In this document: piece after piece, positions 24,305 to 59,891 of the stretch | How positions within the stretch are numbered: position 1 is the stretch's first letter | How the letters are laid out: every line of letters starts with the position of its first letter | NCBI RefSeq assembly: GCF_002897035.1 | Contig: NZ_BAUX01000019.1 | Span: forward strand, 1 to 64,000 | Origin: Methylopila sp. Yamaguchi | GTDB taxonomy: Bacteria > Pseudomonadota > Alphaproteobacteria > Rhizobiales > Methylopilaceae | Length of the DNA stretch: 64,000 bases | Reading direction: 5' to 3' | Notes under the pieces: generated by a model | Told to the model about the DNA's origin: nothing | Databases searched by the model: none | The model's input: only the letters and a program-made list of their open reading frames with translations | Position numbers and translations under genes: made by a program

Positions 24305-24311
24305 ACGGACT

Positions 24312-24326
24312 TTTCCTCTCAGGAAA
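24312..24326. promoter_or_regulatory. candidate operator TTTCCT-N3-AGGAAA upstream of the XRE-cupin gene
   Basis: A perfect 15-base palindrome lies 8-22 bases before the ATG of the XRE-cupin gene, where binding would block transcription or translation initiation. The same core pattern occurs before mgsA and the two transporter units. Confidence 0.5.
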
Positions 24327-24381
24327 CGTTCGTAGGCTAACCAACCTTTGGCCGATCCCCAAGCCTTGCGTTCGTCGGTTC

Positions 24382-27934: not shown

Positions 27935-28218
27935 TCGGCTCCCGAAGCGCGCGCCGCCGCGACGTCGCGGGCGGCTTCGACCTGCTCGATCGCATGGGTG
28001 CGGGTGTCGCGGGTCACTACCAGCCAGGACTGGCAGCCGGCCGCGTGCTGCCACAGCTCGCGGTGCCGTCCGGCAGGGTTGTCGCGCAGGTAGACGTAGT
28101 CGGCGAAGGCGGCCTCGGCGTTCGGCGCGGAGGCGTCGGGCCGGGTCAGCGAGGCGTCGCCGAGGTAGGAGAACTCGTCCACGCCGCGGACGCCGCAATA
28201 GGGGCAGGGGATGCGCAT
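27931..28218 (-). CDS. mgdB: N-methylglutamate dehydrogenase subunit B (sarcosine oxidase delta-like)
   Basis: The 95-residue protein has the delta-subunit start MRIPCPYCGVRG, with Cys5 and Cys8 of the zinc site, and the family segment DYVYLRDNPAGRHRELWQHA followed by GCQSWLVVTRDT. It is a structural subunit of the dehydrogenase. It lies 10 bases after mgdA and overlaps mgdC. Confidence 0.92.
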   Translation of the reverse strand: MRIPCPYCGVRGVDEFSYLGDASLTRPDASAPNAEAAFADYVYLRDNPAGRHRELWQHAAGCQSWLVVTRDTRTHAIEQVEAARDVAAARASGAE

Positions 28219-28228
28219 GGCTTGGGCC

Positions 28229-43281: not shown

Positions 43282-44232
43282 TCAGCGGTTGTGCAGGATG
43301 CGGCCGATCAGGTTCAGCAGCACCTGCGCCGCAAGGATCGAGGTTACGCCCGCGGGATCGTACTCGCGGGCGACTTCGACGAGGTCGACGCCGACCACCG
43401 TTCCGCGCTTGGTGATCCCGTCGAGCAGCTCCAGCACCTCGTAGTAGGTGAAGCCGCCGTGGCTCGGGGTGCCGGTGCCGGGCGCGATCGAAGGGTCGAA
43501 TCCGTCGATGTCGATCGTGAGGTAGTAGCGCTTGGCCGCAGGGATGCGCTCGAGCACGGCGTCCACGCCGAGCTTGCGGATCTGGCGCACCGACAGGATG
43601 TCGGAGCCCATCGCCCGGGCGTCCTCGTAGCCTTCGCGGGCGGTGGAGGAGACGTTGCGGATGCCGAGCTGGGTGAGGCCGGTGACGTAAGGGCGTTCGG
43701 CCGCGCGCCGCATCGGGTTGCCGTGGCCGTAGCGGACGCCGTGCCGCTCGTCGACGAAGTCGAGATGGGCGTCGACCTGGATAAGGTGGATCGGCTCCTC
43801 GTCCGAGAACGCGGCGATGCAGGGGATGTTGACTGAGTGGTCGCCGCCGAGCGTCACCGGCAACGCGCCCGCCTTCAGGATCTTCCGCACCGCAGCCTCG
43901 ATGTTGGCGTGGCTCTGCAGCGTGTCGGTATGGACCATGTCAGCGTCGCCGACGTCGACGATTCGCGCCTGCCCCGCGGGCAGGTAGACGACGTCGTCCT
44001 CGTGGTCGTAGGCGCCGGCGTGGCCGAAGGCGAAGAGCGTCGAAGCCTCGCGAATCGCGCGCGGGCCCGACCGGGCGCCCGACCGCCACTGCGTGCCGAG
44101 GTCGAACGGCGCGCCGAGGATGGCGACGTCCGCGTCCAGCCGGTCCCAGTCGAGGCAGAGCGGGTATTTGCCGAAGGTCGCGACCCCCACGAAGGGGAGG
44201 TCGAGCCGTCCGGCGTCGTAGCCATGAGCCAT
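43282..44232 (-). CDS. ureohydrolase (agmatinase/guanidinobutyrase family), first copy
   Basis: The 316-residue arginase-fold protein has all metal-binding residues: His132 (LGGDHS), Asp154, His156 and Asp158 (DAHLDF), and Asp241 and Asp243 (TIDIDGFDPSIAPGTGTP). It hydrolyses a guanidino group to urea and an amine. Its substrate loops differ clearly from the second copy at 44422, for example SHGGFTYYE versus EIGGFTTRE. It lies 189 bases after the second copy and a repeat element lies in between, so it may have its own promoter. AAGGA precedes the ATG at 44232. Candidate substrates are agmatine, guanidinobutyrate, creatine or another substituted guanidine. Confidence 0.82.
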   Translation of the reverse strand: MAHGYDAGRLDLPFVGVATFGKYPLCLDWDRLDADVAILGAPFDLGTQWRSGARSGPRAIREASTLFAFGHAGAYDHEDDVVYLPAGQARIVDVGDADMVHTDTLQSHANIEAAVRKILKAGALPVTLGGDHSVNIPCIAAFSDEEPIHLIQVDAHLDFVDERHGVRYGHGNPMRRAAERPYVTGLTQLGIRNVSSTAREGYEDARAMGSDILSVRQIRKLGVDAVLERIPAAKRYYLTIDIDGFDPSIAPGTGTPSHGGFTYYEVLELLDGITKRGTVVGVDLVEVAREYDPAGVTSILAAQVLLNLIGRILHNR

Positions 44233-44288
44233 GGCGCAGGGTCCTTGTGGTTTGGGATCGGGCGGCGAACCGCCCTTTTCAAGCTCGC

Positions 44289-44389
44289 CGTCGCCCCGGC
44301 CGAAGTGCCGGGGCCCATAATCCCCTCGCTGGAGATCATTCTCGGTCGGCGGGATCATGGGTTCCGGGACAAGCCCGGAACGACGGCGG
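44289..44389. repeat. intergenic paired-hairpin repeat
   Basis: Two hairpins (CCCCGGC..TGCCGGGG and TTCCGGG-acaa-GCCCGGAA) are joined by a stem formed from CCCATAATCCC and GGGATCATGGG. The same layout recurs at 63663-63760. This is the style of alphaproteobacterial intergenic REP-like elements. It sits between the two ureohydrolase genes. Confidence 0.7.
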
Positions 44390-44421
44390 GATTCAGAGCG
44401 TCGTCGCTGCCCAACGTCCTC

Positions 44422-45384
44422 TCAGCCGCGGCGCGCCGCCAGACTGTCGGCGATCACGCACAGCTCTTCGAACATGATCGTCGCGCCTGTCATTGCGGTG
44501 AGACCGGAGGGGTCGAAGGGCGGCGCGACCTCGACCAGGTCCGCTCCGATGACATTGAGGCCGGCGAGCTTGCGGACCATCGCCTGCGCCTCGCGGGTGG
44601 TGAAGCCGCCGATCTCGGGCGTGCCGGTGCCCGGCGCCTGGGAGGGGTCGATCCCGTCGATGTCGAAGCTGACGTAGGTCGGCTTGTCGCCGAGGATCTC
44701 GCGCGCCTCCGCCATGACGTCGTCGACGCCGCGGGCGACGAATTCCTCCATGAAGATCGTGCGGACGCCGGCGTCTCTGGCGAAGTCGAAGTTGCGCGGA
44801 TCGCCGATGGAGCCGCGGATGCCGATCTGCACGAACCGCTTCGGATCGATCAGCCCCTCCTCGACGCCGCGGCGGAAGGGGGTGCCGTGATTGTACTTCT
44901 GGCCGAAGAACTCGTCGTAGGTGTCGGAGTGCGCGTCGAACTGGATCAGGCCGACGGGTTCGCCGCGATTGAGGCCGCGCAGGATGGGCAGCGTGATGAG
45001 GTGGTCCCCGCCGCCGGTCAGCGGGATGGCGCCGGCGTCGCGAATGCGGCGGTAGAAGCCCTCGATGAGGCTCAGGTTTTCCATCAGGTCGAGCGGGTGC
45101 ACCGGCGCGTCGCCGCAATCCGCGACCCGCGCCAGGTCATAAGGCGAGCGGTTCGTGACGTGATGGAAACGCCGCATCAGCGAGGACTGGTTGCGGAGCT
45201 CCCGCGGCCCGTGCCGCGTGCCCGGACGGTTGGTCACCGCGATGTCGAACGGCACGCCGACGATCGCGACGTCCACCTCCTCCGGCGTCATCACAGGCAG
45301 GCGCATGAAGGTCGGCATGCCTGCGAACCGCGGCACCGTTCCGGAATCGAGCGGCTGCGGGAGCCCGTCGTTGGGAGATTTCAT
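44422..45384 (-). CDS. ureohydrolase (agmatinase/guanidinobutyrase family), second copy
   Basis: The 320-residue protein has the full metal set: His128 (GGGDHL), Asp150, His152 and Asp154 (DAHSDT), Asp241 and Asp243 (SFDIDGIDPSQAPGTGTP). It is close to typical agmatinase or guanidinobutyrase sequences. The ATG at 45384 overlaps the stop of the Rieske oxygenase gene as ATGA, so it is firmly part of the catabolic operon. It would release urea from the guanidino intermediate of that pathway. Confidence 0.85.
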   Translation of the reverse strand: MKSPNDGLPQPLDSGTVPRFAGMPTFMRLPVMTPEEVDVAIVGVPFDIAVTNRPGTRHGPRELRNQSSLMRRFHHVTNRSPYDLARVADCGDAPVHPLDLMENLSLIEGFYRRIRDAGAIPLTGGGDHLITLPILRGLNRGEPVGLIQFDAHSDTYDEFFGQKYNHGTPFRRGVEEGLIDPKRFVQIGIRGSIGDPRNFDFARDAGVRTIFMEEFVARGVDDVMAEAREILGDKPTYVSFDIDGIDPSQAPGTGTPEIGGFTTREAQAMVRKLAGLNVIGADLVEVAPPFDPSGLTAMTGATIMFEELCVIADSLAARRG

Positions 45385-46592
45385 GCCGGACGCCTCGGTT
45401 CGCTCTCGCGCAGGCGGCGCGAGAGATAGCGTTGGATATGCCAGATGGGCTCTTCGAGATGGCTGAGGCGGCCGCGCACGACCTTGGAGGAGCGCAGGCC
45501 CGCTTGCATGGCGGCGTTGACCTGCATGTCCTCGACATGGAAGTCGCGCAGCATCCTCGTCTCGGCTTCGAGGGTGGCGGCGTAGTCCGGGTCCGTCATC
45601 GCCGCCTTCGTCACGAGCGTCGTCGTGAGCAGCGCGCAGCGATCCTCCGCCTGCGGCAGCAGCCTGTACCAGATGACCCGGTCGCGCGCGGTCAGCAGCA
45701 TGAAGCAGGGCAGGCCGAGATAGAGGCCCCACTCGGTCTGCCGGTCGACCGGCAGGCCGGGAACCGGCTTGAAGCCGTCGAGCGCCGCGTCGCGGGCCGC
45801 CGCCTCCTCGGTCGCGCGCCTCGTCTTCTCGTTGAATGGCAGATGGCAGCGGATGAAGTGGCCCTGCTCCGGCTCCGTCCAGGTCATGGCGGCCGGCATG
45901 GACGTGTTGAGCGTATGGTGGTGTATGCCGAGGTGGTGGTAGGACTCGATCCAGTTCTCCACCATGACTTTCCAGTTGAAGTCGCAGTCCCACTTCAACT
46001 CGATGACGACCTCCATCTCGGCCGCGCTCCACGGCGCGATGGCGTCTCCGAAGCCGGCGTAGAGCTCGGCGACCGGAGCTGCGTCGCCGGAGATGTTCAC
46101 GAAAACGAAGCCGTGCCAGATCTCGGCGCGGAACGGCGCGAGCCGCCAGTCCGCCTTCTCGAAGCCTTCCGCCTTCTGCATCTCCGGGCAGCCCTTGAGC
46201 GCTCCGTCGGCCTCGAAGGACCAGCGGTGGTACGGGCAAACGAGGATAGGTTCATTGCCCTCTTCGCCGCCGCCGAAGACGGGGTGGAGTATATCGGCGC
46301 CACGATGCGGACAGACGCGCGAGAGAACGCGCATGTCTCCGTCCCGGCCCCGGATGACGACCATCGGCTCTCCCAGGACGTCGAGGCGGAGATAGTCCCC
46401 AGGCTTCTTGAGCTGCGAGACGTGAGCGAGGCAGATCCAGCCGCGCGCGAGCACCATCTCCGCCTCGTGGGCGAAGAATCCGGGGTCGATATAGGTCTCC
46501 GGCGGCAGCGTCACCGCGCGCGAGAGAGGCAGCGCGGCGGCCTGGAAAACGGCCTCGCGGACGTCCTCGACGGATAGGGACGTGCGTGTCAT
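45381..46592 (-). CDS. Rieske non-heme iron oxygenase, alpha subunit
   Basis: The 403-residue protein has a Rieske centre with Cys94, His96, Cys119 and His122 (CPHRG ... CPYH) and a catalytic domain with His219 and His224 in the NWIESYHHLGIHH segment, where the glutamate precedes as in ring-hydroxylating and N-demethylating oxygenases. It needs an electron-transfer partner, but none is in this operon. The HODM reductase 33 kb away or one elsewhere could serve. In context it may hydroxylate or N-demethylate a guanidino compound. It is 17 bases after the creatininase-family gene. Confidence 0.88.
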   Translation of the reverse strand: MTRTSLSVEDVREAVFQAAALPLSRAVTLPPETYIDPGFFAHEAEMVLARGWICLAHVSQLKKPGDYLRLDVLGEPMVVIRGRDGDMRVLSRVCPHRGADILHPVFGGGEEGNEPILVCPYHRWSFEADGALKGCPEMQKAEGFEKADWRLAPFRAEIWHGFVFVNISGDAAPVAELYAGFGDAIAPWSAAEMEVVIELKWDCDFNWKVMVENWIESYHHLGIHHHTLNTSMPAAMTWTEPEQGHFIRCHLPFNEKTRRATEEAAARDAALDGFKPVPGLPVDRQTEWGLYLGLPCFMLLTARDRVIWYRLLPQAEDRCALLTTTLVTKAAMTDPDYAATLEAETRMLRDFHVEDMQVNAAMQAGLRSSKVVRGRLSHLEEPIWHIQRYLSRRLRESEPRRPA

Positions 46593-46609
46593 CGCGGCGC
46601 TCCCTTGGA

Positions 46610-47383
46610 TCAGAGCCCGAATTCCTTTCGGACGGCGGCGGAGATCAGGGCGACGTGGTCGTCCATCAGCCATTGGCCCTTCTCGGCCGTGGATCCCTGC
46701 GCAATCGCGAGCACGCCCGAGGCCGGCACGAAGCCCTTGGGCACCGGGAAGCGGTCGTAGGTCGGGAACTTCGCCGGACCGTCGGTCGGCGCCTTGTCGA
46801 TCTCCACCAGCTCCGGACACAGCAGCATCATCAGCGACGTTTCGAGCAGGCTCGCGTGCTCCAGCTCGGTGCCGGGGAAGCCGTCCGGGAACAGGCGGTC
46901 GAGCGTCTCGCGCCGCACGAAGTCCCAGTACTCGAAGCGCATCGCCTGCATGTCGGCGATCCCGTCGCGGCGAAGCTCGCGCAGGCCGAGGTCGAGGCCC
47001 TCGACCGAGGGCCAGGCGTTCTCGAAATGGCCGACCACCAGCACGATGCGGCGGACGCCGTGATGGCCGAGGCCGCGGATGACGTCGCGCACCACGAGGG
47101 AGAAGGTGTTGGCGTCGAGGCTGACCGTGCCGGGAAACAGCTCGCCCCCGCCCGAGCGCGGCATCGACTTGTAGCCGTAGGGGATCGTCGGGGCGACGAG
47201 CCCGCCGACCTCACGCGCCACGCGCTCGCAGACGCCGGTCGGGAGCACCACGTCGACGCCGAGCGGCAGGTGCGGCCCATGCTGCTCGGTCGCGCCGAGC
47301 GGCAGGAACACGGGGGCGCCCCCGGCGATCTTGCTCTCGAACTCCGGCCAGCTCAGCTCGGACATGAAAACGCTGTCGACCAT
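46610..47383 (-). CDS. creatininase-family amidohydrolase
   Basis: The 257-residue protein aligns along its length with Pseudomonas creatininase as I remember it: metal-site residues Glu33, His35 and Asp44 (ATEQHGPHLPLGVD), His119 and Glu121 (VGHFEN), YGYKS, the SGGGELFPGT loop and Trp153 in YWDF. The position of the mobile active-site Trp174 of the Pseudomonas enzyme appears to be Thr172, so the substrate may differ from creatinine. Creatininases open a cyclic amide to give a guanidino acid. The start at 47383 has GAAGGA upstream. It is 8 bases after an SDR gene and 17 before the Rieske gene. Confidence 0.82.
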   Translation of the reverse strand: MVDSVFMSELSWPEFESKIAGGAPVFLPLGATEQHGPHLPLGVDVVLPTGVCERVAREVGGLVAPTIPYGYKSMPRSGGGELFPGTVSLDANTFSLVVRDVIRGLGHHGVRRIVLVVGHFENAWPSVEGLDLGLRELRRDGIADMQAMRFEYWDFVRRETLDRLFPDGFPGTELEHASLLETSLMMLLCPELVEIDKAPTDGPAKFPTYDRFPVPKGFVPASGVLAIAQGSTAEKGQWLMDDHVALISAAVRKEFGL

Positions 47384-47391
47384 GGGATCCT

Positions 47392-48099
47392 TCAGTGCAT
47401 CGCGGCGCCGCCGTCGACGCTGACGCATTGGCCCGTCATGAACGTCGTGTGGCGGCTGGTGAGGAACAGGATCGCCTCGGTCAGCTCGTGCGGCTGGCCG
47501 ATGCGGTTGAGCGGGTTGCGGGTCTCGACCGCGAGCTCCTCGGGGGACATCGCGCCGGCGTCGAGCAGCGGGGTGTCGACCGGGCCCGGCGCGATGGCGT
47601 TGACCAGCACGCGGGGGCCGAGCTCGCGCGCCCAGGAGCGCGTCAGCGCCAGCACCGCGCCCTTGGTCGCGCAGTAGCCGGAGGCGCCGGCGCGGCCGAG
47701 ATAGCCGAGCTCGGAGGCCACGTTGACGATCTTGCCGCCCTCGGGCCCGAAATGCTTCAGCGCCTCCCGCGCGGACAGGATGAGGCCCCTAAGGTTCACG
47801 GCGACCATCAGGTCGAAGGCGGCGAAGTCGAACGCCGCGAGGGGGGAGCCGCGGTAGACGCCGGCGCAGTTCACCACGGCGTCGATCCCGCCGAGCGACT
47901 CCGCCGCCTCGGCCATGGTGGCGATCATGTCGGCCTCGTCCGAGACGTCGGCGGTGATCGTGAGGAACGGCGCGTCGGCGGGCGACAGATCGATCCCGGC
48001 GACCTTGGCCCCGGCCTCCGCCAGCCGCAGGGCGCCCGCGCGGCCGATGCCGCTTGAGGCGCCGGTCACCACCACCTTCAGGCCTGCGTGCCCATTCAC
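47392..48099 (-). CDS. short-chain dehydrogenase/reductase, first of pair
   Basis: The 235-residue classical SDR has TGASSGIG, NCAG in place of NNAG, a Ser in VASEL and the catalytic YCATK. The start is GTG at 48099, overlapping the stop of the upstream SDR gene as GTGA; this fixes the start. It would oxidise an alcohol or reduce a carbonyl intermediate of the pathway. Confidence 0.85.
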   Translation of the reverse strand: MNGHAGLKVVVTGASSGIGRAGALRLAEAGAKVAGIDLSPADAPFLTITADVSDEADMIATMAEAAESLGGIDAVVNCAGVYRGSPLAAFDFAAFDLMVAVNLRGLILSAREALKHFGPEGGKIVNVASELGYLGRAGASGYCATKGAVLALTRSWARELGPRVLVNAIAPGPVDTPLLDAGAMSPEELAVETRNPLNRIGQPHELTEAILFLTSRHTTFMTGQCVSVDGGAAMH

Positions 48100-48854
48100 C
48101 ACGGCGCTTCTCCACGGTCGACGCCGAGGCTCTGCCCCGTCACGCTCGCCGCCAGGTCGGAGGCGAGGAACAGGTAGGGGCCGGCGACGTCCTCCGGCTC
48201 CATGAAGCCCGGCAGCGCCTGCGCGGCCACGACGCCGTCGAGCAGAGCCTCCTCCGGAGTTCCCGAGCGCTCGGACATGCGCTGGAGCGAGCGCAGCGAA
48301 GCCTCGGTCCGCACCCAGCCCGGACACACCGCGTTGACGGTGATCCCGCGCGGCCCGAGCTCCTTCGCCCAGGTCTTGGTGAGGCCGATGACCGCGTGCT
48401 TCGACGCGACGTAGCCGCCGAACGCCGCTTCCGCGGTGCGCGACCAGACCGAGGCGGTGTTGATGACCCGTCCGCCGGACGAGAGCTTCGGCAGCAGCGC
48501 CCGGGTCATCAGAAACATGCCGGTGACGTTGATCTCGAGGATCCGGCGGAAGGTCGCCTCGTTCGCGGCGCTGGCGTCGTCGAGCGGCGTCAGGCGCTCG
48601 TAGCCCGCGTTGTTCACCAGAACGTCGAGCTTCGGCAGCGCGGCGGCGAAGGCCTCGACCTCGGCCGATCGCGTGACGTCGACCTCATGGCCGCGGGCGC
48701 CGAGGCGTTGCGCCTCCTCATGGATCGCCGGGTCGTCGGCGAGCATGATCAGCTCGGCGCCGGCGGCGGAGAAGGCGCGGGCGATGCCGAGCCCGATGCC
48801 GCGGCTGGAGCCGGTGACGACGACCGTGCGGCCGGCGAGCCCCTCGAGGTTCAC
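48096..48854 (-). CDS. short-chain dehydrogenase/reductase, second of pair
   Basis: The 252-residue classical SDR has TGSSRGIG, NNAG, the Ser in NTASVWS and the catalytic YVASK. It differs clearly in sequence from the downstream SDR, so the two are not a recent duplication and probably act on different intermediates. The ATG overlaps the stop of the ATPase gene as ATGA. Confidence 0.85.
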   Translation of the reverse strand: MNLEGLAGRTVVVTGSSRGIGLGIARAFSAAGAELIMLADDPAIHEEAQRLGARGHEVDVTRSAEVEAFAAALPKLDVLVNNAGYERLTPLDDASAANEATFRRILEINVTGMFLMTRALLPKLSSGGRVINTASVWSRTAEAAFGGYVASKHAVIGLTKTWAKELGPRGITVNAVCPGWVRTEASLRSLQRMSERSGTPEEALLDGVVAAQALPGFMEPEDVAGPYLFLASDLAASVTGQSLGVDRGEAPW

Positions 48855-49621
48855 AGTTCGTCTCCCGCCGCCGCGCGCACCAGGCCGATGGTCTCGCGCC
48901 GGAGAGCGAAGAAGTCCTCGCCGTCGCGGATCTCCAGCGACCGCTCCTCGCCGAGCCGGCTGCGGACGTCGATCTCGGCGACGATCCGGGTCGGACGTTT
49001 CGAGAACACCACTACGCGGTCGGCCAGGAACAGCGCCTCCTCCACGTCATGGGTGACGAACACGATGGTCTTGGCGTCGCGCCGCTGAATGCGTCGCAGT
49101 TCGGTCTGGAGCTGCTCGCGCCGGAGGGCGTCGAGCGCGCCGAAGGGCTCGTCCATCAGCAGCACGTCGGCGCCGGCCGCGAGCGTGCGGGCGATCGCGA
49201 TGCGCTGCCGCATCCCGCCGGAGACCTGGCTCGGGAAGTGGTCGGAGAACTCGTAGAGGCCGACGAGGTCGAGGTAGCGTTCGGCGCGGACGGCCTTCTC
49301 CTGCTCGGAGAGGTCGTTGCGGTACTTCAGCCCGAAGGCGACGTTCTGCGCGACGGTGAGCCAGGGGAACGACGAGTAGGACTGGAACACCATGCCTCGG
49401 CGCCGGTCCGGCGCGCCGACCGGCTCGCCCTCGAGCCGAATCTCTCCGGAGGTCGGCTGGTCGAGCCCGCCGATCATGCGCATCAGGGTGGTCTTGCCGC
49501 AGCCCGAGGGGCCGAGGAACACCACGAACTCGTGCCGGTCGATCGCAAGGTTGAACGGGGTCTCGACCACCGGCACGGCGCCGAAGCTCTTGGTGACCTG
49601 ATCGAACTGAAGATGCGTCAC
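48851..49621 (-). CDS. ABC transporter ATPase (nitrate/sulfonate/taurine type)
   Basis: The 256-residue ATPase has Walker A GPSGCGKTT, signature VSGGMRQRIAIAR, Walker B VLLMDEPFGALD and the switch His (FVTHDVEEAL). This sequence set is typical of the SsuB/TauB/NrtD family. It energises the permease encoded 10 bases upstream. Confidence 0.9.
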   Translation of the reverse strand: MTHLQFDQVTKSFGAVPVVETPFNLAIDRHEFVVFLGPSGCGKTTLMRMIGGLDQPTSGEIRLEGEPVGAPDRRRGMVFQSYSSFPWLTVAQNVAFGLKYRNDLSEQEKAVRAERYLDLVGLYEFSDHFPSQVSGGMRQRIAIARTLAAGADVLLMDEPFGALDALRREQLQTELRRIQRRDAKTIVFVTHDVEEALFLADRVVVFSKRPTRIVAEIDVRSRLGEERSLEIRDGEDFFALRRETIGLVRAAAGDEL

Positions 49622-49631
49622 GGCCGCGCCC

Positions 49632-50501
49632 TCACAGATACCGGAAGGCGCGGCGGTGGATGAGCCGCAGCAGCTGGTCGGTGGCGAGGCCGATGACGCC
49701 GATCAGCACGACGCCGGCCATCACTTCGGGCGTCTTCATGTAGCGGCGCGCCGCCCAGATCACGAAGCCGAGGCCGGAGTCCGCCGCCACGATCTCGGCG
49801 ATGATCAGGTAGGTCCAGCACCAGCCGAGGGTGATGCGCAGGTTGTCGACGAGCCCCGGCAGCATGGCGCGGAAGGCGACGTCCTTCAGCACCTGGCCCT
49901 CGTTCGCGCCGACGGTGTAGGCGATCTCGACGTACTCCTGCGGCACGCGCCGCATGTCGTCGGCGACCAGCAGCACCAGCTGGAAGAAGGTGCCGAGCCA
50001 CAGCAGGAAGATCTTGGTCTCCTCGCCGACGCCGAACCAGATGATCGCGAGCGGCACCAGCGCCGGAACCGGCAGATAGCGGATGAAGTCGATCGCAGGC
50101 TCCAGCGCCGCGCCAACCACGCGGTAGCCGCTCATCGCGACGCCGATCGGGATGGCGAGCACCGCCGCCAGCAAGAAGGCGCCCCAGACGCGGAGCGTGG
50201 AGACCCAGGCGTGCCAGAGCAGGTGCTGGTCCGAGATCATCCTCGCCATGGCGGAGAGGATCGCGGTGGGGGAGGGGAAGAACAGCGGCGTGGTGAGCCC
50301 GAGGCGGGCGACGAATTCCCAGGCCAGCACGATCGCGACGCTGGCGCCGACCGCGATCGTCGGGCCCCATCCCCGCGGCAGCGGCGTCCTGAGCCGCAGA
50401 AGCCCGCGGGTGGCGCGCTTCCGGGGGCGCGCCGCCGCCGAGGCCGCCGCAGGGGGCGCGGCGGCCTCGGGCCGGGAGATCGTCTCCGCCACCGCGCTCA
50501 C
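49632..50501 (-). CDS. ABC transporter permease (nitrate/sulfonate/taurine type)
   Basis: The 289-residue protein has an Ala/Pro-rich cytoplasmic N-terminus of about 45 residues and about six membrane helices, with the EAA-like loop (EYVEIAYTVGANEGQVLKDV). It forms the membrane channel of the importer. The ATG overlaps the stop of the binding-protein gene as ATGA. Confidence 0.88.
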   Translation of the reverse strand: MSAVAETISRPEAAAPPAAASAAARPRKRATRGLLRLRTPLPRGWGPTIAVGASVAIVLAWEFVARLGLTTPLFFPSPTAILSAMARMISDQHLLWHAWVSTLRVWGAFLLAAVLAIPIGVAMSGYRVVGAALEPAIDFIRYLPVPALVPLAIIWFGVGEETKIFLLWLGTFFQLVLLVADDMRRVPQEYVEIAYTVGANEGQVLKDVAFRAMLPGLVDNLRITLGWCWTYLIIAEIVAADSGLGFVIWAARRYMKTPEVMAGVVLIGVIGLATDQLLRLIHRRAFRYL

Positions 50502-51487
50502 TTCGCGCCGGAGATCGCGGCCATGACCGACGGGTCGATCTGCTGCTTGGCGTCGAGCTTCACGTCCGCCGACTTGTAGTCGAGGTTGAGCTGCATGACG
50601 GTGTCGAAGATCTCGTAGAGCTTGCCCGGCTTCTCGGGCGTCCCGAGCATCGCCGCGGCCGCCGCCTTGTCGGTGAACTCAAGACTGGTGTCGAAGATTT
50701 CCTTCACCTCCTTGTCGCTCAGGTTGTAGTGCGGCGCCGCCAGCTTGATGAACTCGGCCGGGTCGCTCTTGTAGAGGTCGATCGCCTTGAAGATGCCCGT
50801 GAGGAAGTGCTGGTACTTCACCGGGTTCTTCTTCAGGTCGTCCTGGCGCACGTCGATGATGTCGACGACGATGTCGCTGTCCTTGGACGAGATCAGCAGC
50901 TTGCCGTTGCGCTGGGTCTGCGAGGAGAGCGCCTGCGACATCACCGGCTCGTAGGTGCCGATCGCGTCGATGGAGCTGTCCGCGAACACCGCCACGGTGT
51001 CCTGCGTCATGATCTCCTTGATCTTCAGGTCGTCGAGGGTCAGGCCCTCCTTCTTCAGCGCGAGCTGCAGCAGCAGGCGGGCCGGAATGTTGGGCTCGAT
51101 CGCGACCGTCTTGCCCTTCAGCTCCTTGACCGAGCCGATCTTGCCGTCGGCGATCACGCCGTCGCCGCCGACCGACATGTCGATGGTGCCGATGATGACG
51201 CCCGGGGTGGAGGCGTCGCGCGGGCGGCCCTGGTGCTCGCCGACGGTGCGCATGTCGACTTCGACGTCGCCGCGCGTCATGGCGGCGAGCACGTTCGAGC
51301 GGTCGTCCTCGAACCGCATCTCGACGTCGATCCCGAGCTCCTTGAAGTAGCCCTTGTCGATGGCGACGAAGACCGGCGCGTAGCCGGTCCAGGTCGGGGC
51401 CAGCACGCGGATCTTGTTGTCCGCAGCGTGGGCCGTCCCGGCGAGGACGGCGAGCGACAATGCGGCGGCGATCGTGATGCGCGTCAT
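50498..51487 (-). CDS. ABC transporter substrate-binding protein (SsuA/TauA/NMT1 type)
   Basis: The 329-residue protein has a signal peptide ending near Ala21 (VLAGTAHAAD) and an NMT1/SsuA-like fold (WTGYAPVFVAIDKGYFKELG). It is periplasmic and sets the specificity of the importer. It is the first gene of the eight-gene operon 51487 to 44422 and lies divergent from LysR across a 138-base region with a 30-base palindrome. The ligand is unknown; proteins of this class bind nitrate, sulfonates, taurine, urea-like or heterocyclic compounds. Confidence 0.88.
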   Translation of the reverse strand: MTRITIAAALSLAVLAGTAHAADNKIRVLAPTWTGYAPVFVAIDKGYFKELGIDVEMRFEDDRSNVLAAMTRGDVEVDMRTVGEHQGRPRDASTPGVIIGTIDMSVGGDGVIADGKIGSVKELKGKTVAIEPNIPARLLLQLALKKEGLTLDDLKIKEIMTQDTVAVFADSSIDAIGTYEPVMSQALSSQTQRNGKLLISSKDSDIVVDIIDVRQDDLKKNPVKYQHFLTGIFKAIDLYKSDPAEFIKLAAPHYNLSDKEVKEIFDTSLEFTDKAAAAAMLGTPEKPGKLYEIFDTVMQLNLDYKSADVKLDAKQQIDPSVMAAISGAK

Positions 51488-51625: not shown

Positions 51626-52570
51626 ATGCGCCGGCTGGACAACATCGATCTGCGGCTGCTGCGCGTGTTCGTGGCGCTGGCGGAGGCCGGCAGCTTCGCG
51701 GACGCGCAGGTGGTCCTGAACCTGTCGCAGTCCACGCTCTCGACGCACCTCGCGGCGCTGGAGCGCAACATGGGCGGCCAGCTTTGCGAACGCGGCCGCG
51801 CGGGCTTCCGGCTGACGCCGTTCGGGCAGTCAACCTACGCCGCGGCGAAGCGCCTGTTCGAGGACATCGACGCCTTCCAGAACCGCGTCGGCAGCGACCG
51901 CCAACGCCTCGTCGGACGCCTGCGCGTCGGCATCATCGACGGCGTGGTGACGAACGCGAAGCTCGGCCTGCAGACGGCCTTCAGCCGCTACATGGACTAC
52001 GCCTCGGAGGTGTTCGTCGACCTCGAGCTCGGCACGCCGCTCGAGCTCGAGCAGGCGCTGATGGACGGGCGGCGCGACGTCATCATCGGCCCGTTCTCCC
52101 AGAAGGCGCCGGGCGTCGCTTACACCCCGCTCTGCCGGGAGCCGCACGCGCTCTACTGCGGCGCGGGGCATCCGCTTTTCGGGATGAAGGACATCCGCCA
52201 CGCCGACATCGAGGCGGCGCTGTTCTCGGTCCGGCGCTACCGGCACCTCGACGATCTCTACCGGGTCAACCACCCGCGGGCGAGCGGCTCCATCCTGCAC
52301 ATGGAGGCCCAGGCCATGCTGATCCTGTCCGGCCGCTTCATCGGCTATCTGCCACGCCACATCGGCGACGACTGGGCCTCGCGCGGCCGAATGAAGGCGC
52401 TCAAGGCCGAGAGCTACGGCTTCGACTCCCAGCACTTCGTGGCGACGCGCCGGCTGAAGGGCGACGCGCCCCATGTCGACGCTTTCGTCGAGGAGCTGAA
52501 GCGCCAGTCGGCCGAGACCGGCGCGCAGGAGAAGCGCGCGGGCCGGCAGGTTCCGACCCCGGCCGCCTGA
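51626..52570 (+). CDS. LysR-family regulator of the guanidino-type operon
   Basis: The 314-residue protein has an N-terminal helix-turn-helix (LRLLRVFVALAEAGSFADAQ, LNLSQSTLSTHLAALERN) and a C-terminal ligand-binding domain. It is divergent from the ABC/creatininase operon with the 30-base palindrome between them, so it most likely controls that operon. Its end is 2 bases from the convergent allophanate hydrolase gene. Confidence 0.88.
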   Translation: MRRLDNIDLRLLRVFVALAEAGSFADAQVVLNLSQSTLSTHLAALERNMGGQLCERGRAGFRLTPFGQSTYAAAKRLFEDIDAFQNRVGSDRQRLVGRLRVGIIDGVVTNAKLGLQTAFSRYMDYASEVFVDLELGTPLELEQALMDGRRDVIIGPFSQKAPGVAYTPLCREPHALYCGAGHPLFGMKDIRHADIEAALFSVRRYRHLDDLYRVNHPRASGSILHMEAQAMLILSGRFIGYLPRHIGDDWASRGRMKALKAESYGFDSQHFVATRRLKGDAPHVDAFVEELKRQSAETGAQEKRAGRQVPTPAA

Positions 52571-52572
52571 GG

Positions 52573-54384
52573 TCAGGCCGCCTTCAGCGAGCGCGCATAG
52601 GCGCGCCAGCCGCCGAACGAGGTGATGTCCGGCGCGCCCGCGGCGCCGGCCGCCTCCACGAGGAAGCCGAGCGCGCTCGTCCCGTCGCCGAGCCGAAGCG
52701 TCCCGACGCCGAGCGGCGACGGGATCCCGGCGACGAAGGGCCCGAAGCTTGCGGCCGGCAGCGCCCAGACCTCGGTTTCGATCGCCGCTCCGGAGCCGTC
52801 GGCGACGCGCAGCAACCCGGGCCGCGGCGTCGCGCCGTCGAGCAGGTGCAGCCGGTAGAGCGGCGCCGTCGCGACGGCGCGCAGAAAGCGCCCCCCGCGC
52901 TTCAGGAGCTCGCCGTTCAGCGCCATGCCGGAGAGGTGCGCGCCGACGACGACGATCTCGATCTCGCCGGCTTCCGCGACGGCCGGCCGGACAACCGGCT
53001 GCGGCGCCGGGCGCCCGAGCGCGCCGATCGCGACGCCGCCCGCCGCATGGATCGCAGCCCCGAGCGCCGCGAGCCTCCCGTCCGCGCCGGCGGGCCCGAT
53101 GAGGGTGACGCCGGCGGGAATGCCGTCGGCGCGCGGCCGGCCGGGCACGGCCAGGGCGCAGTAGTCCAGCAGGTTGACGAAGTTGGTGTAGGTTCCGAGC
53201 TCGCTGTTGAGCGAGATCGGGTCCGCCAGCACCGCCTCAACCGTGTGGGCGCGGGGAAAGGTCGGGACCAGCATGCAGTCGACCTTGTCCCAGACGCGGC
53301 CGAGCTCCCGGCGCAGCTCCAGCAGGCGGTAAACGTCGCCATAGGCGTCGGCGGCGGAGAACGTCCGCGCGCCCTCGATGATCTCGCGGGTGACCGGGTG
53401 CAGGGCCTCGGGCGAGGCTTCGATAAAGTCGCGGATCTGGTGATAGCGCGAGGCGACCCAGGACCCCTCGTAGAGCATCCGCGCGACCGCGAAGTAGGGC
53501 TCGAAGTCGATCTCCACGGTCTCGCCGCCGAGCGCCCGTACGTCGGCGAGCGTGCCGTCGAAGGCCGCCTCCGCCGCGGCGTTCCCGCCGAAGCGACGGC
53601 TTGCGGCGTCGGGGATTGCGACGCGCGTCCGGGGCGGAAGCGGCCCCAGCGGCGGCACGGCCATGTCGCGCGAGAACCCGTCGTCCGGGTCGTAGCCGCC
53701 GATGACGCCAAGCACCGCGTAGCCGTCGTCGACGGTCTGCGCGAACACCGTCACGCCGTCGACCAGCCGCACCGAGTAGACCACGCCGCTGGTGGGCGTC
53801 AGGCCGACGGTCGGCTTCACGCCAACGATGTTGTTGAGCCCCGCCGGCACGCGGCCTGAGCCCGCCGTGTCGGTGCCGAGCGTGAAGGGCACGAGCCCCG
53901 CCGCGACCGCGACCGCTGATCCCGAGCTGGAGCCGCCCGGCACGAGCGTCGGATCGACCGTGTTGCGCGGGATGGGGTAGGGCGTGCGCACGCCGACGAG
54001 GCCGGTCGCGAACTGGTCGAGGTTGGTCTTGCCGATCGCGATCGCGCCGGCCGCAAGCGTGCGCTCGACGGAGGGGGCGTGACGCGCCGGCTCGTAGGCG
54101 AACTCTCGGCAGGCCGCGGTGGTGGGGAGGCCGGCGAAGTCGATGCTGTCCTTGATGCCGAACGGAACGCCCCAGAGCGGCCGCCCGTCGGGCTTCGGCC
54201 CGAGCGCGCGGGCCGCCGCGCGCGCGGTCTCCCGGTCGACCAGCGAGATGAAGACGCCGGGATCGTTCCGCGCCTCGATCCGGTCGTAGACCTCGTCGAC
54301 CACGGCGACGGGATCGAGCCCCTCGGCGTAGGCCGCCTTGAGCGAGGCGAGATCGAAGGCGAGCTCGGAAAGTTTGGTCGTCAT
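52573..54384 (-). CDS. atzF: allophanate hydrolase
   Basis: The 603-residue protein has an amidase-signature domain with Lys in FGIKDSIDFAGLPTTAAC and the Ser-cisSer pair in PGGSSSGSAVAVAAG, and a C-terminal domain of about 130 residues (VVGAHLSGMALNGELLKRGG, IPSPLGVGTLRLGDG) that in AtzF decarboxylates the intermediate. The full length and both domains fit AtzF/DUR2-type enzymes, which turn allophanate into two ammonia and two carbon dioxide. No urea carboxylase, biuret hydrolase or guanidine carboxylase is in the window. It is 83 bases after the Dpp-type ATPase gene and may be the last gene of that operon. Confidence 0.88.
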   Translation of the reverse strand: MTTKLSELAFDLASLKAAYAEGLDPVAVVDEVYDRIEARNDPGVFISLVDRETARAAARALGPKPDGRPLWGVPFGIKDSIDFAGLPTTAACREFAYEPARHAPSVERTLAAGAIAIGKTNLDQFATGLVGVRTPYPIPRNTVDPTLVPGGSSSGSAVAVAAGLVPFTLGTDTAGSGRVPAGLNNIVGVKPTVGLTPTSGVVYSVRLVDGVTVFAQTVDDGYAVLGVIGGYDPDDGFSRDMAVPPLGPLPPRTRVAIPDAASRRFGGNAAAEAAFDGTLADVRALGGETVEIDFEPYFAVARMLYEGSWVASRYHQIRDFIEASPEALHPVTREIIEGARTFSAADAYGDVYRLLELRRELGRVWDKVDCMLVPTFPRAHTVEAVLADPISLNSELGTYTNFVNLLDYCALAVPGRPRADGIPAGVTLIGPAGADGRLAALGAAIHAAGGVAIGALGRPAPQPVVRPAVAEAGEIEIVVVGAHLSGMALNGELLKRGGRFLRAVATAPLYRLHLLDGATPRPGLLRVADGSGAAIETEVWALPAASFGPFVAGIPSPLGVGTLRLGDGTSALGFLVEAAGAAGAPDITSFGGWRAYARSLKAA

Positions 54385-54467
54385 GGCGCGCTCCTGAAAT
54401 CGAGGCCGCTGAAGTGATGTGCATGCCGCCGCGCGGCGCGACGGCGCGTTTCCATTCGACGCGCCCC

Positions 54468-56153
54468 TCACGCCGGCGGGTGCGGGATCGCGGCGGTGAG
54501 CTCGCGCGTGTAGGCGGCCTGCGGGGTCTCGAGCACCGCCTTCGCGGATCCCTGCTCGACGGCCGCGCCCTGCCGCATGACGATGACGCGGTCGCAGAGC
54601 AGCCGGACCACGTGAAGGTCGTGGCTCACGAACAGGTAGCTCATCCCGAGCCTCGCCTTGAGGTCGTCGAGCAGGTTGAGCACCACCGCCTGGACCGAGA
54701 CGTCGAGCGCCGCGGTCGGCTCGTCGAGGATGACCAGCTCCGGATCGAGCGCGATGGCGCGGGCGATGCCGACGCGCGCCTTCTGGCCGCCGGACATCTG
54801 GTGCGGGAAGCGATCGAGCAGGTCGAGCGGCAGCCCGACAAGCGCCGCGAGCTCTTCGCAGCGGGCGCGGACCGCGTCGCGGCCCTCCAGCGCGCCCATG
54901 CGCATCAAGGGATCGGCGATGGCGCGCGCCGCAGTGAACCGTGGGTTCAGGCTGTCGGTCGGGTCCTGAAACACCATCTGGATGCGCCGACGATGTGGGG
55001 ACGACGCGAAGCTTTTCGCCGGGATCGAGCCGATGTCGTCGGTTCCGAGCGTGATCCTCCCCGAGGTCGGATCGAGCAGCCGCATCACCATCATGGAGGT
55101 GGTGGACTTGCCGCAGCCGCTCTCCCCCACGAGGCCGAGGCTCTCGCCGCGGCGGATTTCGAACGAGAGCCCGTCGACGGCGCGGAACGGCGCCTGGTCG
55201 CCCGCGGGCGCGCCGCGACCGAACATCTGGGCCCAGGTCTTGGAGGCGCCTTGGCGCGGGTACTCCTTCACCAGCCCCTCGACCTTGAGCAGCACGTCGC
55301 CGGTCACGGAGGCGCGCGGGTTCGCCGGCGTCGCGCTCTCCGGCGGCAGCAGGCCGCGGAGCGTCGAGCCCGGCCGCGGCGTCGCCCGCATCAGCCGCCG
55401 CGTGTAGTCGTGGGCGGGCGCGACGAAGACCTGGCGGGCAGGCGCGGTCTCGACCACTTCGCCCTTCCTCATCACCACGACCTTGTCGCAGTAGGCGGCG
55501 GCGAGGCCGAGGTCATGGGTGATCAGGATGGTGGACATGCCGCGCGCCCGCGTCAGCTCCGTCACCAGATCCAGCACCGCCTTCTGGGTGGTGACGTCGA
55601 GGCCGGTGGTCGGTTCGTCCGCGATCAGCAGTTGCGGCCGGCAGGCGAGCGCCAGCGCGATCACGATGCGCTGGCACATGCCGCCCGACAGTTCGAACGG
55701 ATAGGCGTGATAGCGCTCCTCCGGCCGCGCGATCTTGACCTGCTCCAGCATCTCGATCGCCTTGGCCCTGGCGTCCATGGAGCCCGCCTGCGCGTGGCGG
55801 CGCAGCACGTCCTCGATCTGGCGGCCGACCTTGCGGATCGGGTTCAGCGCCATGCGTGGGTTCTGGAAGATCATCGAGATCTCGCGGCCGCGCACGTCTG
55901 TCATCTGCCGCTCGCTCGCGGCGCGGAGATCGACGCCGGAGAAGGCGACCGAGCCGTCCGCGATCCGGCCGGCGCGGTCGAGGATCCGCATCACGGCGTA
56001 GGAGGTGACGGACTTGCCTGAGCCGGACTCGCCGACGACCCCGACGGTCTCCCCGCGCCCGACCTCCAGGTCGACGCTCCTCACCGCCTGCACCACGCCG
56101 TTACGAGTGGCGAACTCGACAGTGAGGGCCTTAACGTCCAACAGAGCGGTCAT
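54468..56153 (-). CDS. peptide/nickel-type ABC transporter, fused double ATPase
   Basis: The 561-residue protein contains two complete ABC modules of the DppD/DppF kind: Walker A GESGSGKSVTS in the first and GESGCGKSTTS in the second, signatures LSGGMCQRI and MSGGQKARVGIARAIA, and each ends in an oligopeptide-transporter C-terminal region. It powers import by the two permeases upstream. The start lies 3 bases after the permease stop. Confidence 0.9.
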   Translation of the reverse strand: MTALLDVKALTVEFATRNGVVQAVRSVDLEVGRGETVGVVGESGSGKSVTSYAVMRILDRAGRIADGSVAFSGVDLRAASERQMTDVRGREISMIFQNPRMALNPIRKVGRQIEDVLRRHAQAGSMDARAKAIEMLEQVKIARPEERYHAYPFELSGGMCQRIVIALALACRPQLLIADEPTTGLDVTTQKAVLDLVTELTRARGMSTILITHDLGLAAAYCDKVVVMRKGEVVETAPARQVFVAPAHDYTRRLMRATPRPGSTLRGLLPPESATPANPRASVTGDVLLKVEGLVKEYPRQGASKTWAQMFGRGAPAGDQAPFRAVDGLSFEIRRGESLGLVGESGCGKSTTSMMVMRLLDPTSGRITLGTDDIGSIPAKSFASSPHRRRIQMVFQDPTDSLNPRFTAARAIADPLMRMGALEGRDAVRARCEELAALVGLPLDLLDRFPHQMSGGQKARVGIARAIALDPELVILDEPTAALDVSVQAVVLNLLDDLKARLGMSYLFVSHDLHVVRLLCDRVIVMRQGAAVEQGSAKAVLETPQAAYTRELTAAIPHPPA

Positions 56154-56156
56154 GCC

Positions 56157-57095
56157 TCACGTCCTCCGCTGCGGGTCGATGATGTCGCGCAGGCCGTCGC
56201 CGAGCAGATTGAAGCAGAACACGGCGATCATCAGCGCGAGCCCGGGGAACAGCGCGATCCACCACTCGCCGGAGATGATGAAGCCGGCGCCCTCGGCGAC
56301 CATGATCCCCCACTCGGGGGTCGGCGGCTTCACGCCGAGGCCGATGAACGAGAGGCCGGCCGCGTTCAGGATGGCGTAGCCCATGGTCAGCGACATCTGC
56401 ACCGCCATGATCGGCATGATGTTCGGCAGGATCTGCGTCATCAGGATGCGCATCTCGGAGTTGCCGGTGAGCCGGGCCGCCTGCACGAAGCCGGCGTCGC
56501 GGCGCACGTTGGCCTCCGCCCGGGCGATGCGCTGGTACAGCGGGAAATTCACGATCGCGGTGGCGATGACGATGTTGGTCACCGTGTTGCCGAGCGCCGC
56601 GACGATGCCCATGGCCAGCACGAACAGCGGGAAGGCCATGATGGTGTCGCTGACGCGGCTCATGACGCGGTCGGTCCAGCCCCCGAAGAAGCCGGCGCAG
56701 ACGCCGGCGAAGCCGCCGAGCGCAAACACCAGCGCGACCGAGCAGATCGCGATCGTCAGGTCGAGCCGGGTCGCGACCAGCACGCGGGAGAAGATGTCCC
56801 GCCCGATCTGGTCGGTGCCGAACCAGTGCGCCGCGGAGGGAGGCTGCAGCGCCGCCGCGGTGTCGGAGGCGAGGGGATCGTAGGGCGCGATCCAGGGTCC
56901 GAGGATCGCGGCGAGCGCGATCACGAAGAATAGCGCGAAGGCGAAGCCGGTGACGGGGTTCGAGGTCGCGACGTAGCGGGCGTGGCCGAGGCCGGCGGCG
57001 AAGCCGGCGGCGGGCCGCGCGGGCTGTTCGATCACGGCCGGGGCGGGCTCCGGGAGCGGCTGCGGCAGCGCGGCTGAGACGTCGAGGTTGCTCAT
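56157..57095 (-). CDS. peptide/nickel-type ABC transporter permease (DppC-like)
   Basis: The 312-residue protein has a 45-residue Pro/Ala-rich N-terminus, helix 1 (ASNPVTGFAFALFFVIALAA region) and about five further helices, with the DppC family segments FGTDQIGRDIFSRVL and GLGVKPPTPEWG. Its start overlaps the upstream permease stop by 4 bases. Confidence 0.9.
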   Translation of the reverse strand: MSNLDVSAALPQPLPEPAPAVIEQPARPAAGFAAGLGHARYVATSNPVTGFAFALFFVIALAAILGPWIAPYDPLASDTAAALQPPSAAHWFGTDQIGRDIFSRVLVATRLDLTIAICSVALVFALGGFAGVCAGFFGGWTDRVMSRVSDTIMAFPLFVLAMGIVAALGNTVTNIVIATAIVNFPLYQRIARAEANVRRDAGFVQAARLTGNSEMRILMTQILPNIMPIMAVQMSLTMGYAILNAAGLSFIGLGVKPPTPEWGIMVAEGAGFIISGEWWIALFPGLALMIAVFCFNLLGDGLRDIIDPQRRT

Positions 57096-58105
57096 GACTC
57101 CAGCCTCACGCGGGGGTCGATCAGCCCGTAGGCGAGGTCGATCAGGAGGTTGAGGGCGACGTAGAGCAGCGCCATGGCGAGCACGAAGCCCTGCACCGGC
57201 GCGTAGTCCGACTGGATCAGCGCCTCGACGGCGAAGGAGCCGACGCCCGGCCAGGCGAACACCTTCTCTACCAGGACGTTCGCGCCGAGCAGGAAGGAGA
57301 ACACCATGCCGAGCGTGGTGACGACCGGCAGCATGGCGTTGCGGAAGGCGTAGGCGACGATCACCGTGCCGGGCCGGAGGCCCGAGGCGCGGGCGGTGCG
57401 GATGAACTCCGACGACAGCACCGACAGCATCGCGGCGCGCGTCATCCGGGCGATCGGCGCCAGCGCGAACAGGGCGAGCGTCGCGGCCGGCAGCACGAGC
57501 TGCGCCGCCGCCGCCCGGAAGGTCTCGAGGTCGCCCGCGATCAGCGCGTCGATCGTAAAGAAGCCGGTGACCTTGGCGGGCTCGGTGAAGAACACGTCGA
57601 GCCGGCCGACCGGCGCCGGGGCCCAGCCGAGTTGGTAGTAGAAGACGTAAACGAACAGCAGTCCGGTGAAGAACACCGGCAGCGAGACGCCCGCGGTCGT
57701 CACCACCCGGCAGACGTGGTCGATGAGCGAGCCTTCCTTCACCGCGGCCAGGATGCCGAGCGGGATCGCGATCGCCATCGCCAGCAGCAGCGCGGTCAGG
57801 GTCAGCTCCGCCGAGGCCGGCAGCCGGGCGGCGAGCTCGGTCAGCACGGGCTGGCCGGTGGAGAGCGCCGAGCCGAGGTTGCCGGTCGCGAGGTCCTTCA
57901 CATAGGCCAGGAACTGAACCGGCAGCGGCCTGTCGAGGCCGAGCGAGGCGCGGATCTGCTCGATCGAGGCCTGGTCGGCCGTCGGACCCGCGAAGTAGGC
58001 CGCCGGGTCGCCGGGCAGCACGCGGGTGAGCAGGAAGGTCACGATCACCACGCCGACGAGCGTCGGCGCGATGGTCGCAAGGCGTCGCGCGAGCGCGCGG
58101 AGCAT
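57092..58105 (-). CDS. peptide/nickel-type ABC transporter permease (DppB-like)
   Basis: The 337-residue protein has six membrane helices and the DppB family segments FLLTRVLPGDPAAYFAG and LGLDRPLPVQFLAYVKDLA. The ATG at 58105 is chosen because AAGGAGG lies about 8 bases upstream; the longer frame starts in the gap after the binding-protein gene. Confidence 0.9.
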   Translation of the reverse strand: MLRALARRLATIAPTLVGVVIVTFLLTRVLPGDPAAYFAGPTADQASIEQIRASLGLDRPLPVQFLAYVKDLATGNLGSALSTGQPVLTELAARLPASAELTLTALLLAMAIAIPLGILAAVKEGSLIDHVCRVVTTAGVSLPVFFTGLLFVYVFYYQLGWAPAPVGRLDVFFTEPAKVTGFFTIDALIAGDLETFRAAAAQLVLPAATLALFALAPIARMTRAAMLSVLSSEFIRTARASGLRPGTVIVAYAFRNAMLPVVTTLGMVFSFLLGANVLVEKVFAWPGVGSFAVEALIQSDYAPVQGFVLAMALLYVALNLLIDLAYGLIDPRVRLES

Positions 58106-58202
58106 GGCGGCCTCCTTGGCTGGAGCGCGCGGGCGGTCATCCGCCGCGCAGGGCATGCGTTACGCTTGGGGTCACTCGAACGTCAGGCGGGCGAAGGGGG
58201 CC

Positions 58203-59825: not shown

Positions 59826-59860
59826 GCCTCGTCTCCCCAAGCGATGTCTTCGCTGGAGGG

Positions 59861-59891
59861 ATATTGTATGCAATTCATCTATATTGCATGC
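59861..59891. promoter_or_regulatory. direct repeat ATATTGYATGC, candidate GntR operator
   Basis: ATATTGTATGC at 59861-59871 and ATATTGCATGC at 59881-59891 are spaced 20 bases apart, two helical turns. Each contains a short GCAT/ATGC symmetry. They lie 36-66 bases before the binding-protein ATG and about 100 before the GntR ATG. Confidence 0.5.

Follow-up and report, generated by a model that had tools for sequence, protein, structure and literature searches.

A nine-gene operon of Methylopila sp. Yamaguchi with a putative role in the degradation of a small guanidino compound

Operon structure and proposed function

What does a creatininase-type hydrolase act on when two short-chain dehydrogenases (SDRs), a Rieske oxygenase and two ureohydrolases stand in place of creatinase and sarcosine oxidase, its partners in the creatinine pathway? 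This question is raised by an operon of Methylopila sp. Yamaguchi at positions 43282-51487 of a 64,000-nt stretch of contig NZ_BAUX01000019.1 (69.6% G+C, hereafter the window; host genome 4.42 Mb, 39 contigs). With about even chances, the operon imports a small guanidino compound and degrades it by oxidation followed by hydrolysis; the guanidino character of the predicted chemistry is well supported. Somewhat more tentatively, we suggest that an SDR and a creatininase-type hydrolase without Trp174 are the core of an undescribed family of pathways for the oxidation and ring opening of cyclic guanidines resembling creatinine. Joined by ureohydrolases, this core would lead to urea; joined by an MgdL-type lyase and an oxygenase of the Rieske or desaturase type, it would lead to free guanidine, sensed by a riboswitch.

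The genes lie on the minus strand in the order substrate-binding protein (SBP), permease, ATPase, SDR1, SDR2, creatininase-family cyclic-amide hydrolase (CRN), Rieske oxygenase alpha subunit (RHO), and ureohydrolases UH1 and UH2, and Pfam assigned all nine proteins to the expected families. According to the open reading frame (ORF) coordinates, the first eight genes (SBP to UH1) are coupled either by 4-nt overlaps (SBP/permease, ATPase/SDR1, SDR1/SDR2, RHO/UH1) or by gaps of 8-17 nt (permease/ATPase, 10 nt; SDR2/CRN, 8 nt; CRN/RHO, 17 nt), which bears out the initial annotation, where eight genes were joined by four-base overlaps or gaps under 20 bases; its coordinates and families were also confirmed. 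UH2 follows as a ninth gene after 189 nt. The initial gene list did not include a LysR-family regulator (314 aa, Pfam LysR_substrate/HTH_1; 51626..52570, plus strand). This regulator gene is divergent from the operon, as it is in the relatives L023, L024, L025, L030 and L040. The homology-supported start of UH2 is at 44232, and an alternative in-frame ATG at 44358 would shrink the distance to UH1 to 63 nt; measured between homologous matches, the same gap is 11, 23 and 29 nt in three same-genus relatives (L023, L024, L025). The spacer itself (44233..44421, 189 nt) carries the inverted repeat TTCCGGG-N5-CCCGGAA and was rejected as a dispersed repeat, its exact 19-mer occurring once in the genome and its 29-mer once in the window. 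That the nine genes form one operon is supported, and the grouping is not due to chance, because three other genomes of the genus have the same nine-gene order and subsets of it occur in other orders and classes.

A constant core of SDR2 and CRN

Across 397 genomes of the order, RHO had close matches (E ≤ 1e-60) in 10, among them 4 of the 13 genus members, and these four (the window's and three others) share the nine-gene order. At the same limit, CRN matched 10 of the 398 phylum genomes searched. A scan of a genome collection described as holding 84,980 species, made with the RHO alignment, returned 51 loci from Pseudomonadota, Verrucomicrobia, cyanobacteria and one Ilumatobacter metagenome-assembled genome. 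We viewed, within 9.5 kb, the neighbourhoods of 29 CRN rows with more than 45% identity to two creatininase-type queries. These rows represent 28 distinct places (L042 = L085), and L043 is close to L044; several rows of the Parvibaculum type are closely related, contig ends truncate several loci, and four places carry two locus numbers (L013/L023, L014/L024, L015/L025, L016/L028). Genes in the relatives' loci come from a simple ORF caller and tblastn rather than annotation, and the SDR1 and SDR2 labels denote the better match of two queries at ≥36% identity.

SDR2 was present in 28 of the 29 rows, followed by RHO (20), SDR1 (15), a homologue of the lyase MgdL (11), UH1 (10), UH2 (8) and a desaturase-type gene (5), and SDR2 lay ≤44 nt from CRN in 23 rows. 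Co-occurrence was nested: UH1 was found only with SDR1 (10/10), UH2 only with UH1 (8/8), and the desaturase-type gene always with the MgdL homologue (5/5). RHO is missing from L086-L089, in which SDR1-SDR2-CRN occurs either by itself or joined by UH1/UH2, and from L122, which is cut on its 5' side and shows SDR2-CRN-UH1. The five genomes holding these loci (G077, G738, G690, G722, G1366) retain SDR2 and CRN, four of them also UH1; for RHO, the search at E ≤ 1e-40 returned a 42% partial match in G077, a 30% match in G722 and nothing in the other three, and the desaturase-type gene had no match in any of the five. Empty results here and below hold at the stated E-value limits and are compatible with unrelated enzymes of equal function. 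Since SDR2/CRN operons persist where neither oxygenase gene has a close counterpart, we regard SDR2 and CRN as the constant core, whose substrate may be already oxidised on entry. In Methyloligella sp. GL2, EutB and EutC (ethanolamine ammonia-lyase; L016 10573-12866 = L028) follow immediately on SDR2-CRN-RHO.

CRN and plain creatinine degradation

CRN (257 aa; 46610..47383, minus strand) passed the creatininase equivalog model TIGR04448 with 355.1 bits against a cut-off of 235, and its best solved relative is the creatininase of P. putida (PDB 1j2t, 3a6e; 49% identity, 124/253 positions). It retains E34, H36, D45, H120, E122, W154 and H178 (P. putida numbering), which we take to be the metal-binding and core active-site residues and which are kept in 28/28 clade rows with data. 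The two residues that presumably close over the substrate, in contrast, are replaced (Tyr121 by Phe, Trp174 by Thr), and Trp174 is missing in 27 of the 28 rows. Proteins annotated as 'creatininase' include a clade whose substrate may be other than creatinine. L094 is the sole clade row with Trp174 and without SDR2; its CRN neighbours an ammeline/guanine-deaminase-type amidohydrolase and, by eye, a deaminase, and the locus probably belongs to a different pathway.

The family resemblance and the equivalog score speak for direct use of creatinine. CRN would then produce creatine. A ureohydrolase standing in for M24 creatinase could turn this into sarcosine and urea; alternatively, the Rieske enzyme could first demethylate it to guanidinoacetate, from which a ureohydrolase would release glycine and urea. 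The SDRs would be accessories. In favour of this route, no M24 creatinase is present, as initially annotated, and the whole genome holds no creatinase-length Creatinase_N gene that could partner CRN. Its only gene with that domain sits in a 612-aa ORF on another contig and, by length, appears to encode a Xaa-Pro aminopeptidase rather than a creatinase (presumably about 400 aa). Removal of an N-hydroxymethyl group would suit the MgdL-type lyase of relatives, and sarcosine-oxidase-family genes lie ~15 kb away (soxA, 1222.7 bits against 1164; soxB, 712.8 against 529). However, the company of these genes suits N-methylglutamate dehydrogenase, the operon itself has no sarcosine oxidase gene, and a human ureohydrolase close to GbuA is inactive on creatine and guanidinoacetate according to PMC9772407. 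Direct creatinine use is unsupported mainly because it leaves the SDRs idle although SDR2 is the most constant partner of CRN (28/29), and because the CRN clade has lost Trp174. We consider this route unlikely. From the initial interpretation, a single operon with guanidino chemistry is supported and a simple creatinine route is not.

A pathway for an inositol-like, aromatic or other ring substrate, with ureohydrolase-family proteins serving another function, would dispense with guanidino compounds altogether. Ring compounds are frequent Rieske substrates, and an SDR together with a creatininase-family hydrolase is also a feature of inositol breakdown (IolN). Yet CRN reached 70.6 bits on the model of the 3-dehydro-scyllo-inosose hydrolase IolN, far under the cut-off of 245, and was rejected as an inositol-type hydrolase, which disfavours the inositol case once named as a possible refutation. 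The intact creatininase residue set, the complete metal sites of both ureohydrolases and the riboswitch and MgdL links in relatives described below argue in the same direction and make a non-guanidino pathway very improbable.

Ureohydrolases UH1 and UH2

UH1 (320 aa; 44422..45384) and UH2 (316 aa; 43282..44232), both PF00491 proteins on the minus strand, each keep all six metal ligands (H126, D148, H150, D152, D240 and D242 in the comparison with GpuA). UH1 shares these with the P. aeruginosa 3-guanidinopropionase GpuA (PDB 3nip), to which it is 61% identical (430.8 bits); the UH1s of the operons range from 59 to 67% identity, with 69% for a fragment in L033. GpuA is not known from operons of the SDR/CRN/Rieske kind. 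In a tree that included neither L033 nor any UH2 except the window's, the operon UH1s fell, with weak support, beside the GpuA branch and not within it. Tyr157 of GpuA, named for substrate recognition in PMC10833137, corresponds to Phe in UH1 of the window, L023, L024, L025 and L086, to Tyr in L030, L040, L067, L087 and L088, and to Arg in the window's UH2. The closest solved relative of UH2 is the agmatinase of D. radiodurans (1wog, 189.3 bits, 36% identity).

Other guanidino-specific ureohydrolases were compared as well. GdmH and MefH belong to the same superfamily and act on guanidino substrates, as UH1 and UH2 are predicted to do, and MefH is encoded by tandem genes. PMC11410670 gives a Trp at N. 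inopinata position 313 as the criterion for the guanidinase GdmH. In UH2, Thr aligns with the Trp of 9fek, which we infer from its numbering to be the N. inopinata enzyme, and UH1 has the same GTGTP motif; both were rejected as guanidinases because this Trp is absent. Similarly, an active/inactive pair of the kind formed by the metformin/dimethylguanidine hydrolase MefH, a heteromer with one subunit devoid of a metal site (PMC11399263), was rejected because UH1 and UH2, unlike the MefH beta subunit, both keep their metal ligands. Separately, three genomes of one genus (g146) contain a stand-alone UH1-UH2-LysR unit (L123, L124, L125), located ~33 kb from an SDR2-CRN-RHO unit in G425; the search places one TGA inside the UH1 of L124.

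Rieske oxygenase, dehydrogenases and importer

RHO (403 aa, PF00355 and PF00848; 45381..46592, minus strand) is a CntA/GbcA-like protein whose closest solved relative is carnitine monooxygenase. Eight residues are invariant across 5 orthologues (C94, H96, C119, H122, E216, H219, H224, D355); we take them to be the Rieske ligands, the iron site of two His and one Asp, and a Glu that bridges as in carnitine monooxygenase. CntA and GbcA are Rieske oxygenases acting at carbons beside nitrogen and have Glu at the bridging position, as does RHO. RHO differs in that it failed the glycine betaine monooxygenase (GbcA) model (120.5 bits against a cut-off of 670) and that the operon has no reductase gene for it. 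More distant Rieske homologues at 33-37% identity (L017-L021) were excluded as orthologues because of the company they keep: a glutamine-synthetase-like protein in 5/5 loci and, in L017-L020, a differing creatininase-family protein without Glu122 and the Gly triad.

SDR1 (252 aa; 48096..48854) and SDR2 (235 aa; 47392..48099), both matching PF13561/PF00106 on the minus strand, carry an acidic residue behind the second strand, usually a sign of NAD use in SDRs. The importer consists of the periplasmic SBP of NMT1/SsuA type (329 aa, PF09084; 50498..51487), an ATP-binding cassette (ABC) permease (289 aa, PF00528; 49632..50501) and an ABC ATPase (256 aa, PF00005; 48851..49621), all on the minus strand. 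SBP scored 99 bits against TIGR01728, under its cut-off of 163.5, and no close solved relative that could name its ligand was found.

Guanidine riboswitches, MgdL homologues and carboxylases in relatives

A connection with guanidine came from four loci of another class of the phylum (L090-L093; 3 genera, 2 families), where a Guanidine-I riboswitch precedes the SDR/CRN operon (76.3-82 bits against an Rfam cut-off of 63) and ends 75-120 nt before the SBP match on the same strand. These operons comprise SBP, an FA_desaturase-family enzyme, SDRs, CRN, an MgdL homologue and an ATPase, with the permease called in three of four and no Rieske gene; L091 additionally has a lactonase-like and an EamA protein, and L093 a biuret-hydrolase-like protein.

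The MgdL homologues (family c27) occur in 11 of the 29 CRN rows, including two of the window's genus (L024, L025), where the gene comes after UH2. Neither Pfam nor NCBIfam matched the scanned family members at E ≤ 1e-5. A D-L-R motif is invariant in 13 aligned MgdL-type sequences, the pair is kept in 10 of the 11 homologues near CRN, and hhalign matched a profile of 6 of these 11 to 7 independently found sequences with a probability of 99.9%. PMC12508155 describes MgdL as an N-(hydroxymethyl)guanidine lyase with D49 and R51 essential. One of the seven, the c27 member of L115, lies behind a Guanidine-II riboswitch, with carboxylase and 2-oxoglutarate dioxygenase genes before it and an allophanate hydrolase gene after it, which matches the order gca-mgdH-mgdL-atzF and its control in that paper. 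The dioxygenase beside the MgdL-like gene was checked with Pfam in L115 and L117, and identified by eye elsewhere.

For Vreelandella boliviensis, PMC12508155 describes a gca-MgdH/MgdL operon that pairs the MgdL lyase with an oxygenase hydroxylating next to a guanidino nitrogen. Operons related to that of the window resemble it in carrying MgdL homologues, carboxylase-type genes or guanidine riboswitches. The V. boliviensis oxygenase is 2-oxoglutarate dependent, whereas the window operon and its relatives have Rieske or desaturase-type enzymes plus SDRs and CRN, and the window operon ends in ureohydrolases with neither an MgdL homologue nor a riboswitch.

Carboxylase-type genes share a locus with a Rieske gene in L041, L044, L045, L046, L058 and L061 (only L058 in the family scan). 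Near the position that discriminates guanidine- from urea-carboxylases, the proteins of L041, L046, L058, L061, L114 and L115 have an Asp, residue 701 of TIGR02712 being located by counting and hence an estimate rather than an HMM (hidden Markov model) alignment; the pieces in L044 and L045 end short of it. The Verrucomicrobial loci (12 rows in the residue comparison) carry another creatininase-family type and were used solely for this carboxylase link. L046, L048, L050, L054, L057, L058 and L061, and L117 from a member of another phylum, encode a different creatininase-family type with a glutamine-synthetase-like protein, and in some of them a NikR-like regulator and genes of the carboxylase or MgdH/MgdL kind are added; these look like a second guanidino-type cluster.

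Locus L044, with two oxygenases, SDR2, CRN, an MgdL homologue, a carboxylase and an allophanate hydrolase, brings in a route through creatol, which covers most of its genes. Here an oxygenase would hydroxylate C5 of creatinine, an SDR would convert creatol to 5-oxocreatinine, CRN would open the ring, and methylguanidine or the acid would be cleaved to urea and methylamine or methyloxamate; in relatives, a second oxygenase and the MgdL-type lyase would demethylate methylguanidine or the acid to guanidine. Genes resembling the N-methylglutamate pathway for methylamine lie within the same window, and creatinine yields methylguanidine abiotically according to PMC12508155 and PMC3775425. The route nevertheless gives no role to SDR1 of the window or to a luciferase-type gene of L044, five genomes with the SDR2/CRN core have no close copy of either oxygenase gene, and no enzyme for it was found in the literature searched. 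We judge it slightly less probable even than direct creatinine use.

Pathway model

The scheme we favour is the simplest chemistry that gives every constant partner a role. RHO would hydroxylate a carbon bound to a guanidino nitrogen, leading to N-dealkylation or to a carbinolamine. One or both SDRs would oxidise an alcohol, or a cyclic carbinolamine arising spontaneously from a guanidino aldehyde, yielding a creatinine-like lactam of the cyclic acylguanidine type. CRN would open this ring to a guanidino acid, UH1 would split the acid into urea and an amino acid, and UH2 might handle a second product or partner UH1. The released urea could pass to the ureases of the genome, in which two urease alpha genes scored above the cut-off. 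Candidate substrates are a short N-alkyl guanidine or a guanidino alcohol (guanidinoethanol, guanidinopropanol), or alternatively creatinine that enters by way of a hydroxylated derivative. The core of SDR and CRN may, in relatives, be coupled to the release of free guanidine instead of urea.

Several observations weigh against this scheme or loosen its fit. The substrate, all reactions and their order are inferred from gene content, gene order, families, catalytic residues and recurrence, which are what we observed, and the functions of the SDRs cannot be read from sequence. SDR2 and CRN are not always adjacent, being 878-925 nt apart (one gene's length) in L090-L093 and 3.2 kb apart in L030; SDR2 is absent from L094, SDR1 was uncalled in L092, and the SDR2 of L090-L093 is only 37-40% identical, near the SDR background. 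UH1-like genes occur in 76 of 385 genomes of the class, and 29 viewed neighbourhoods were mostly outside such operons; UH1 alone thus does not fix the substrate, because its relatives are common and mostly in other company. The strongest guanidine links rest on relatives, since the window's genome has no match to MgdL (E ≤ 0.01) or to the desaturase-type gene and no guanidine riboswitch in the window reached the Rfam gathering score; control of the window operon by such a riboswitch was accordingly rejected. Rfam was run over 23 of the 29 CRN rows (L031, L035-L038 and L043 lay outside the scan) and found Guanidine-I in 4 and none in 19, the window included. The riboswitch is also absent from L044, the fifth row with the desaturase-type gene, and from another ten Rieske loci that have no CRN row, including L032, L041 and L045, and the MgdL homologue of L039 has no Arg in its D-x-R motif.

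Each protein family of the operon is known, and the combination and its probable reaction set were not found described. We found no account of this gene cluster in the open literature searched, whose coverage did not extend to the Molecular Cell work on guanidine riboswitches, and none of the papers searched pairs 'creatininase' with 'Rieske', in agreement with the initial annotation of the locus as a candidate for an undescribed pathway. If the SDR/CRN core does belong to the undescribed pathway family suggested above, it would add a bacterial enzymatic origin of guanidine to those already known. Guanidine riboswitches are widespread, yet according to PMC12508155 the enzymatic reactions known to yield guanidine are limited in number. 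The core ties riboswitch-controlled operons of another class to the ureohydrolase operons of the window's genus and supplies named genes for assays of a missing upstream substrate.

Other gene clusters of the window

Beyond the regulator gene, an allophanate hydrolase (52573..54471, minus strand; TIGR02713, 723 bits against 511) ends a neighbouring operon with a Dpp-type ABC importer set (54468-59873, minus strand; SBP_bac_5). Its SBP is 49% identical to one beside the carboxylase/dioxygenase/MgdL-like set in L114, and this operon is possibly linked to the guanidino operon. A carboxylase query returned separate partial matches only in the genome, the best with 48% identity over residues 1-439.

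A cluster at 18980-29488 (minus strand) encodes type III glutamine-synthetase, glutamate-synthase-like, GXGXG and glutamine amidotransferase proteins, an HTH/cupin regulator and sarcosine-oxidase-family alpha and beta subunits. It looks like the N-methylglutamate pathway for methylamine. At 9390-15028 (minus strand), GcvT-like, haem-dependent oxidative N-demethylase alpha-like and DmmA-like proteins, together with an amino acid permease, form what looks like a dimethylamine monooxygenase cluster.

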